From contig BAABWY010000005.1 in the NCBI GenBank assembly GCA_040367435.1, positions 124,001 to 188,000 on the forward strand: a DNA stretch of 64,000 nt, read 5' to 3'. The translations under genes and the position numbers were made by a program. The notes under the pieces are model-generated. The model was not told the origin of the DNA. It worked only from the letters and a program-made list of their open reading frames with translations, and searched no databases. This stretch comes from Hyphomicrobiales bacterium 4NK60-0047b (GTDB lineage Bacteria; Pseudomonadota; Alphaproteobacteria; Rhizobiales; HXMU1428-3). Every line of letters starts with the position of its first letter. The first letter of the stretch is position 1. Shown one piece after another: positions 27,918 to 28,837 of this stretch.

Positions 27918-28355
27918 GTTGCTAATCTTCTTAAAAAATATTTGTGAATAAAATCTACTATTTCTGAGTCTCTCTCTCTTGTCTATTTTTGAACACAATT
28001 ATTTTTGTGTCTTTTTATAGAGCTTTTGCATAATTTAGAGTGTGTTAACTCATTTTTTGCAAAGTCGTTCTTGCGTCTTTGCTCGACATGAGTATAGTCC
28101 CAGTTTCGAAATGCTCTTTGCTTGATGAAACTCTAAAATTCTTAATGAGAATTAAGATTTTCATTTTCAAGTCTTTCGAGCTTTATTATCTGTGCTTTTT
28201 TCACAGCTTATGTACAGTTTTACTAACTCAAAACTTGTGCCAATTTATATTTGCATAGTGCATTTTTATCACTATAGCATTTATAAGACCGTAAGTCTGG
28301 TATTAATTTTTTCATGGTTTATATCAATCTGTGTTTATTTTGAGCTGGATTTAAT
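27918..28355. other. 438-bp non-coding stretch upstream of the tRNA-Ser repeats
   Basis: AT-rich with no supportable gene. One short hairpin CTTAAT-GAGA-ATTAAG at 28141-28156 followed by ATTTTCATTTT is the only structure noted. The promoter for the tRNA-Ser locus, if it lies before the tandem units, should be in the last 100 bp; I see no confident -35/-10 pair. Confidence 0.4.
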
Positions 28356-28394
28356 ATGATGAGAGAGGAGTGCCGAGTGGCTGAAGGCGCACCC

Positions 28395-28421
28395 AAAAAT
28401 GCTTTCGCATTTTACTTTTTT
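28395..28421 (+). terminator. Terminator-like hairpin in tRNA-half unit 1
   Basis: AAAATGC-TTTC-GCATTTT followed by ACTTTTTT. It lies directly after the tRNA 5'-half copy, so a transcript begun upstream could end as a short tRNA-half RNA. AU-rich stem, so strength uncertain. Confidence 0.55.
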
Positions 28422-28511
28422 GGTAAGCGACGCGCTTATCTTAAGCCAATCGGTGTTAGATCCGATTTTAAAATGATAGGAGAGGTGCGCCGAGTGGCTG
28501 AAGGCGCACGC

Positions 28512-28538
28512 AAAAATGCTTTCGCATTTTACTTTTTT
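28512..28538 (+). terminator. Terminator-like hairpin in tRNA-half unit 2
   Basis: Identical to the hairpin in unit 1, 117 bp later (AAAATGC-TTTC-GCATTTT then ACTTTTTT). It lies 58 bp before the true tRNA, which would therefore need a promoter in the tail of unit 2 or read-through. Confidence 0.55.
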
Positions 28539-28595
28539 GGTAAGCGACGCGCTTATCTTAAGCCAATCGGTGTTAGATCCGATTTTAAAATGATA

Positions 28596-28685
28596 GGAGA
28601 GGTGGCCGAGTGGCTGAAGGCGCACGCTTGGAAAGCGTGTAGGCGGGTAACCGTCTCGAGGGTTCGAATCCCTCTCTCTCCGCCA
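28596..28685 (+). tRNA. tRNA-Ser (anticodon GGA)
   Basis: A complete class II tRNA of 90 nt including encoded CCA. The acceptor stem GGAGAGG pairs with TCTCTCC, with discriminator G. The D arm has GCCGAGTGGCTGAAGGC, anticodon stem-loop CACGC-TTGGAAA-GCGTG gives GGA, a long variable arm follows, and the T arm is GAGGG-TTCGAAT-CCCTC. It decodes UCC/UCU. Two truncated copies of its 5' half lie immediately upstream. Reading the region as protein yields the familiar spurious [11 protein letters not shown] peptide. Confidence 0.97.
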
Positions 28686-28730
28686 TTTTTTTGCACTTTT
28701 CCGCCCACCAATCCAAAACACTCAAGCCAA

Positions 28731-28775
28731 AGCACTGTGACCCTGAGCACTGTAACTCTGAGCATTGTGGCTCTG
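28731..28775 (+). repeat. Three 15-bp tandem repeats after tRNA-Ser
   Basis: AGCACTGTGACCCTG, AGCACTGTAACTCTG and AGCATTGTGGCTCTG are in direct succession, differing at 2-4 positions each. No function evident. Confidence 0.75.
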
Positions 28776-28837
28776 AGTTAGAACTCCCCGCCTAAACTCT
28801 CCGCTGTTTTACTTAGCCCCTATTGATTGTTAATAAT

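Follow-up and report, generated by a model that had tools for sequence, protein, structure and literature searches.

Imperfect copies of a tRNA-Ser(GGA) 5' half with an antisense tail upstream of the gene itself: a candidate bistable leader of a tRNA precursor in alphaproteobacteria

Riboswitches, attenuators and T-box elements are bistable 5' leaders of mRNAs, in which mutually exclusive helices share bases ahead of the gene that they control; single tRNA genes are usually regarded as constitutive. In Escherichia coli, tandem repeats downstream of tyrT carry the 3' end of the tRNA (rtT RNA), and integrative elements that use tRNA genes duplicate the tRNA 3' end and carry an integrase. One segment in forward, inverted and again forward order is found in tandem inversion duplications and in quasi-palindrome products of template switching. 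The locus described here resembles each of these systems in part. Like the mRNA leaders, it would place exclusive helices with shared bases in a 5' leader before the controlled gene, but what it precedes is a tRNA gene, whose own 5' half is mimicked by the competing strand, and neither a terminator (scan of 28000-28800) nor a ligand was found. Like tyrT, it has tandem repeats with part of a tRNA beside the tRNA's own gene, but here the repeats lie upstream and consist of the 5' half, their copies separated by an antisense strand, whereas at tyrT the 3' end is repeated downstream. As with integrative elements, part of the tRNA gene is duplicated alongside, although it is the 5' half and there is no cargo. 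With the template-switch products it shares the order of the arms, but differs from them in its recurrence in several families and orders, in an extra hairpin that is mostly present and in a conserved interruption of the inverted arm. The reading that we prefer, with a probability of about one half, is that the repeated units act in cis, as a bistable leader on the precursor of tRNA-Ser(GGA) with two competing 5' halves. Bistable leaders as such are known; one that imitates and opposes half of its own tRNA is new as far as checked, and a literature search, mostly of papers accessible without subscription, gave no description of such a leader in the titles and abstracts listed. No Rfam family matched the unit in the window, where only the tRNA itself scored at or above the gathering score, and the same was true of the 8 of 33 unit loci that were scanned, sX4 reaching 45.2 bits on one of them (L120) against a gathering score of 70 and lying mostly on the tRNA.

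The window (the whole 64,000-nt stretch of DNA that was analysed, contig C5 124001-188000 of genome G000) contains a single tRNA called by ARAGORN, tRNA-Ser(GGA) at 28596-28685 on the forward strand, as are all window features given below; its nt 9-34 (28604-28629) are the region pairable with the antisense tail. A repeat search returned direct repeats of 117 nt at 28339-28455 and 28456-28572 with 91% identity, and the two tandem 117-nt units noticed before this tRNA by an earlier, sequence-only reading are therefore real; in the register of the tRNA they occupy 28362-28478 (unit 1) and 28479-28595 (unit 2). Because related loci occur in other families, a chance origin of the unit pattern is excluded. 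Each unit consists of an imperfect copy of tRNA nt 1-30 (the pseudo 5' half), hairpin B, hairpin C, a linker, hairpin D and the tRNA leader. In unit 1, the pseudo half lies at 28362-28392, hairpin B at 28396-28413 (AAAATGC-TTTC-GCATTTT), hairpin C at 28422-28440 (GGTAAGCG-ACG-CGCTTATC), the antisense tail, partly complementary to tRNA nt ~10-33, at 28425-28453 and hairpin D at 28448-28467 (AATCGG...CCGATT). In unit 2, the pseudo half (28479-28509) has one extra base, hairpin B (28513-28530) and the tail (28542-28570) are identical to those of unit 1, hairpin C lies at 28539-28557 and hairpin D, read from the sequence, at 28565-28584; the tail of this unit adjoins the tRNA and is the one that represents the window in the duplex and covariation tests.

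A 23-nt piece of the 5' half is present three times, at spacings of 117 and 116 nt, the first copy being 96% identical. Copies of the 5' half thus exist as had been read, but both are imperfect, with AGAGAGGAGTGCCGAG in unit 1 and GGAGAGGTGCGCCGAG in unit 2 against GGAGAGGTGGCCGAG in the tRNA. Similarly, the identity of the tails was correct, while their length had been put at 79 nt and the match between the units extends over 87 of 87 nt, that is, the 85-nt tail and the first 2 nt of the next copy. In folds of single units, the stability of unit 1 is unremarkable (z -1.16, 23 of 200 shuffles equally stable), that of unit 2 is unusually high (z -2.44), and seven units from relatives gave z values from -1.90 to -3.90. 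In this genus the pseudo half has become a hairpin of its own (window 28479-28509, L004 789-818, L006 1561-1608), with the stem GTGCGCC/GGCGCAC or GCGCC/GGCGC and, in G007, an insert in the former D-loop. A DNA search (E≤0.001) found the repeated unit stretch at no second site of the same genome. Among the 36 tRNA matches of this genome, one of which (C6:121856-121922) was not called by ARAGORN, a single tRNA-Ser(GGA) gene was seen, and no copy of a 5' half lay within 400 nt upstream of the 34 other tRNAs (the highest alignment score was 18, compared with 47 and 58 for the window units, for which the gap costs differed slightly).

The survey comprised 33 distinct unit loci with the window included (32 plus L183, which was found last), and in 29 of them a complete tRNA-Ser(GGA) lies directly downstream; the remaining 4 are cut by contig or locus ends, L015 and L124 ending inside the tRNA and L114 and L121 inside the array. 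Since L114, L121 and L015 end in or just after the array, assembly breaks may conceal longer arrays. When 41 genomes were searched at the DNA level, related units came to light ahead of tRNA-Ser(GGA) elsewhere in the genus as well as in two further families. With a covariance model built from the tail (R1), units were detected in 6 of 8 genomes belonging to the genus and, across the order, in 14 of 397 sampled genomes, 6 of which (G049, G151, G205, G233, G267 and G310) had not been used in the model. The second model (R3), made from 31 units including those loci, recovered the same 14 of 397 genomes, and both models were trained on several of the 14 genomes that they recover. Among 71 retrieved loci R1 confirmed the strong units, but a divergent one in G785 (L089), which passed inspection by eye, scored only 12.7 bits; in view of this poor score and of the strict filters, 14 of 397 is a lower bound. 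In another order of the class, that of G697, units were found with R3 in 3 of 174 genomes; the letters of the G852 unit are those of the UBA6178 unit, and its locus (L181) was counted once with UBA6178. A further model, R2, was unspecific, with matches in 87 of 385 class genomes, in 17 of 30 genomes of the family of G310 and in 3 of 4 of the family of G151, many of them tRNA-Ser itself; above 40 bits it matched only G000 and G697 in the class, G310, G233, G267 and G777 in the first family and G151 and G049 in the second.

In named genomes, a pattern scan picked out 23 stretches; 20 were judged by eye to be true units, at least 5 of them (L106, L112, L116, L123 and L124) being already among the other loci, and the remaining 3 (L109, L113 and L118) have no unit. 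The carriers include Methyloligella, which is cultured, Nitratireductor, Salaquimonas, Thermopetrobacter, Rhodobiaceae, Phyllobacteriaceae, records of the Rhizobiaceae group and other Hyphomicrobiales, the unclassified alphaproteobacterium UBA6178 and, beyond these, Robiginitomaculum, Hellea and an uncultured member of the Caulobacterales. Carriers are patchy across several alphaproteobacterial families and orders. The sequence-only reading had called the layout unusual and had looked to relatives for the answer, and both were borne out; its alternative of an inert, single slippage event fails, as tail-like sequences recur, always before tRNA-Ser(GGA) where the tRNA is readable. The comparison of orthologous loci that it proposed did reveal units in some relatives, in varying copy number, and not a single recent duplication. 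Note that individual loci have peculiarities of their own: L183 (G871) carries a tail-like remnant without a pseudo half upstream of a full unit, L125 (a MAG of the Rhizobiaceae group) has a degenerate first unit with a different insert before a normal unit, and the MAG HKST-UBA55 (G205), possibly a mixed bin, has two separate unit loci (L117 and L124) with different tRNA-Ser D-loops.

Patchiness over several orders, at one tRNA in the loci read, could suggest a mobile element with tRNA-Ser(GGA) as its insertion site, the 5' half being restored on insertion, and the footprint of an element at the anticodon loop had been among the early suggestions. However, a homologue of the gene upstream of the window tRNA is present at 30 of the 38 loci tested, with or without units (L046 and L106 in this set are one genome; the homologue was not found by this test in L052, L107, L111, L115, L120, L122, L126 and L128), so that within Rhizobiales the units mostly occupy an old shared locus and are not scattered insertions. 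Moreover, with lengths of 85-152 nt the units are too short for cargo, and it is the 5' half that is duplicated, not the tRNA 3' end together with an integrase cargo that marks an integrative element; copies at several unrelated sites or carriers would mark a mobile element, and the tail occupies one locus in its own genome. Viral contigs held 0 exact matches to the unit pattern, and no unit occurred among the best 10 of 126 plasmid and the best 10 of 23 phage records listed, in which the matches were confined to the surroundings of the tRNA and covered at most 29% of the query. An element footprint is accordingly disfavoured, and we regard it as very improbable.

The close relatives G003 and G006 have the same locus without units, and the units are therefore easily lost or replaced. 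Between the unit-bearing tRNA (identical in the window and G002) and the unit-free one (G003, G006), 4 of 90 positions differ, three of the four lying in the tail-pairing region; the upstream protein is 96-100% identical between those relatives, and the downstream ORF is 95.7% identical in G003 and 63.5% in G006. Copy number is 3 in G004, 2 in the window, 1 in G002 and 0 in G003 and G006. Such variation and ready loss would be expected if the units were a neutral array, that is, a forward-inverted-forward duplication of the tRNA 5' half that arose once or a few times and has no function, in which unequal recombination changes the copy number, cleanly deletes units and keeps the copies alike, while template switching keeps the tail complementary. 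The order of pseudo half, antisense tail and real half is that of a tandem inversion duplication and is the remnant that such a rearrangement should leave, although the inverted arm has a conserved interruption. The flank before the pseudo half is also duplicated in several loci (L107, L115, L126 and L128, by eye), which fits the same origin. This explanation is the strongest rival of the bistable leader, somewhat unlikely in our estimate, and the evidence that bears on it further comes from the tail itself.

Reverse-complementing tRNA nt ~10-33 yields the consensus of the tail, AGGCGUGCGCUUNUCUUCGACC(A)CUCGG, apart from an interruption that reads UUNN (mostly UUNU), and this antisense relation to the real 5' half is a point that the sequence-only reading did not contain. 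Over 29 loci, the mean duplex energy was -31.4 kcal/mol for the tail with the real tRNA against -24.5 kcal/mol with the pseudo half, and pairing with the real tRNA was the stronger in 27 of them, the exceptions being the window (-28.2 with the pseudo half against -25.0 with the real tRNA) and Methyloligella GL2. In GL2 a double change preserves the pairing of the tail with the pseudo half, and at one position of L122 the pseudo half is the better pairing partner. Where the D region of the pseudo half has diverged, in G007 and NORP169, the tail gave -13.7 and -23.7 with the pseudo half against -26.3 and -34.7 with the real tRNA. When D-loop classes were compared, the tail's own class provided the best or tied duplex in 24 of 32 loci and strictly the best in 22, and none of 10000 permutations of the class labels reached the observed mean; for L114 and L121, loci without a tRNA, the heads in this test were those of the next unit. 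The duplex, class, precursor-fold and tail:tRNA covariation tests used the tRNA-adjacent unit only and omitted further tandem units. L114 and L121 were omitted from the duplex comparison, the precursor folding and the tail:tRNA covariation, L117 from the first two of these, and L015, L122 and L124 from the precursor folding as well.

In the alignment of 30 loci, 84.9% of the cells of the tail:tRNA helix are paired, against 30.3-43.3% in slid controls. The column pair 26/98 is paired in 30 of 30 loci (19 G-C, 11 A-U), 27/97 is A-U in 22 and G-C in 4, 25/99 is C-G in 18, A-U in 4 and unpaired in 8, and 9/111, with a tRNA base beyond the pseudo half, is paired in 26 (14 G-C, 8 A-U, 4 G-U) and unpaired in 4; the outer columns 30-35 pair more weakly, with 6 to 17 of 30 loci unpaired. 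Double-change cells numbered 27, a value reached in 0 of 500 shuffles, while there was no excess of pairs with a change on both sides (4 against a shuffle mean of 3.3, 194 of 500 as high) or of further pair types (13, where the shuffles average 14.4 and all 500 of 500 are as high). Since the loci are related, these shuffle counts and the permutation count above are not probabilities. RNAalifold on 29 units gave 10 pairs, none with a double change, and so lends no support to the structure by itself. The pseudo half shows the same inner covariation (29 units) because it is mostly equal to the tRNA; at the same time, its nt 29 is unpaired in 18 of 29 units, whereas the real tRNA pairs there in 25 of 30 loci. 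On these grounds of sequence comparison, the tail is best described as an imperfect antisense of real tRNA nt ~10-33 that tracks lineage changes in the tRNA, and its potential to pair with the tRNA is well supported.

Hairpin C covaries independently, with 79.3% of cells paired against at most 51.1% in slid controls (30 loci) and 13 double-change cells against a shuffle mean of 7.1 (2 of 500 as high); its column pair 7/20, outside the tail:tRNA helix, is U-A in 8 loci, A-U in 5, U-G in 3, G-U in 2 and unpaired in 12. Columns 8-11, 16-17 and 22-24 are common to hairpin C and the tail:tRNA helix, and the two helices, both covarying, would therefore be mutually exclusive, as a matter of pairing potential. 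Hairpin B varies in sequence between lineages with its stem kept (by eye) and is absent in G004, G005 and Thermopetrobacter. It had been taken for a terminator-like hairpin, and an intrinsic terminator or attenuator, which would be expected to have a G+C-rich stem and then a T-run, was considered and rejected: a terminator scan of 28000-28800 returned 0 sites, and in other lineages the hairpin is missing or, by eye, has a T-run behind it only inconsistently. In G151, G049, L125 and L127 an acceptor-like helix of the pseudo acceptor with GUCC after hairpin B can be seen by eye; it is absent in L115.

Template switching is described as homogenising inverted repeats (PMC7202029, PMC8604942), and homogenisation of this kind would mimic covariation in a neutral array. 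However, the UUNN interruption of the tail persists, with its bases used in the independently covarying hairpin C; the units have lasted over families and orders even though one recombination between direct copies would delete them; and the match of the tail to the real tRNA has outlasted divergence of the pseudo-half D region in G007 and NORP169. The persistence across families of the interruption and of the tail's own hairpin, which homogenisation against the tRNA should remove, argues for selection; ready loss, varying copy number and duplicated flanks argue for neutrality.

For the bistable leader, the following course can be envisaged. A promoter upstream of all units would give one transcript with the pseudo 5' half, hairpin B, the antisense tail and the real tRNA. 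In fold A, the real tRNA would form its cloverleaf, with the tail in the local hairpin C or paired with the pseudo half, and RNase P would release a normal tRNA. In fold B, the tail would capture the real 5' half (nt ~10-33), the pseudo half could close an acceptor stem with the real 3' half, and the product would be a tRNA-like body without a usable anticodon arm, joined to a long helix cleavable by nucleases such as RNase III. The balance of A and B would set the amount of mature tRNA, and the leader would thus probably limit tRNA maturation; the nuclease steps, the regulation and any trigger of the leader are what we infer.

Equilibrium folding of 26 precursors, from the pseudo half to the end of the tRNA, is consistent with this scheme. 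In 25 of 26 the predicted minimum free energy (MFE) is lower than when leader and tRNA are folded separately (difference -5.8 kcal/mol on average, -5.2 for the window), so that joint folds of the fold B type are predicted to be the more stable. The real acceptor stem is missing from the predicted MFE structure in 23 of 26 precursors and kept in 3. The pseudo acceptor is predicted to pair with the 3' acceptor strand by at least 5 pairs in 17 of 26 and by at least 7 pairs in 14 of 26, and under the strict definition of fold B, with at least 14 further pairs between the leader and the real 5' half, 12 of 26 qualify; the window MFE structure has only 13 leader:5'-half pairs and 4 pseudo-acceptor pairs. 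The real acceptor stem has a probability of 0.80-1.00 in the tRNA alone; of the 26 full precursors only 1, that of Phyllobacteriaceae, gives a value above 0.5, and omission of the pseudo half raises the number to 7 of 26, which argues that the pseudo half favours fold B in some loci, while on paper the tail alone would suffice to disturb the tRNA in most. Folding energies ignore kinetics, and co-transcriptional kinetics may favour fold A, and hence normal tRNA, throughout, since the pseudo half and the tail are transcribed first. Normal tRNA is needed by the cell, given that only one GGA gene was seen in its genome.

If fold B were itself productive, the pseudo half would be the true 5' exon and the insert would be removed like an intron. 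The 14 of 26 predicted MFE structures with long pseudo-acceptor helices agree with this, as does the copying of acceptor strands other than GGAGAGG into the pseudo half (e.g. GGACAGG, GGTGAGG and GGATGGG). However, the pseudo halves of L108, L119 and L012 align only from tRNA nt 12, 6 and 17, respectively, many units have GGCGCCC or similar where the tRNA has GGCGCAC, and we know of no bacterial splicing machinery for such an insert; we give this explanation very little credence, the least of all those considered.

Transcription of the units as one precursor is plausible. A weak candidate promoter, TTGCGT-N16-TATAGT, was read from the sequence at 28071-28098, ~260 nt before unit 1; the same motif is present in the unit-free G003, and a stock sigma-70 scan of 28000-28800 returned no promoter. 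A scan of 30 loci, which included L183 (entered in this test only) and omitted L117, L121 and L128, covered the 200 nt before the first pseudo half, a span that for the window does not reach 28071-28098. A sigma-70-like match of at least 10 of 12 was present in 6 of the 30 loci; the corresponding figures are 10 of 300 for background windows and 7 of 19 for loci without units. As most loci are without a strong consensus promoter match, it is by inference that the units are taken as transcribed.

The same scan bears on whether the leader acts in trans, as a small RNA that serves as a tRNA-half decoy or as an antisense to tRNA-Ser precursors or mRNAs. A structured leader would remain after RNase P cleavage, and the consensus tail pairs with the 5' part of the tRNA-Ser(GCT) of the window's genome nearly as well as with that of GGA (-37.1 against -38.1); for the window tail, the duplex with its own tRNA (-25.0) is only slightly more stable than those with Ser-TGA (-23.6) and Ser-GCT (-21.5). 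But a site of sigma-70 type matching at least 9 of 12 positions was found inside the units in 0 of 30 loci, which speaks against the decoy RNAs proposed earlier, the window region 28000-28800 has no terminator-like site, and the tail tracks the adjacent tRNA. Because the tail follows the tRNA beside it, cis action is favoured, and we consider a trans-acting RNA unlikely. Taken as a whole, the interpretation offered by the sequence-only reading is partly supported.

The fuller claim that the bistable leader invites, namely that a tRNA gene controls its own maturation by swapping halves, through a two-state switch kept with compensatory changes in scattered alphaproteobacteria, is a tentative one, possible but on balance doubtful. 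Seryl-tRNA synthetase does not read the anticodon, and the off-state body, like tRNA-Ser but without an anticodon arm, might for this reason be charged by the enzyme. The locus also provides a natural setting in which to ask to what extent RNA covariation can be imitated by recombination and template switching. If the bistable leader is real, the abundance of a single isoacceptor, here tRNA-Ser(GGA), would be set by a mechanism of a new kind.
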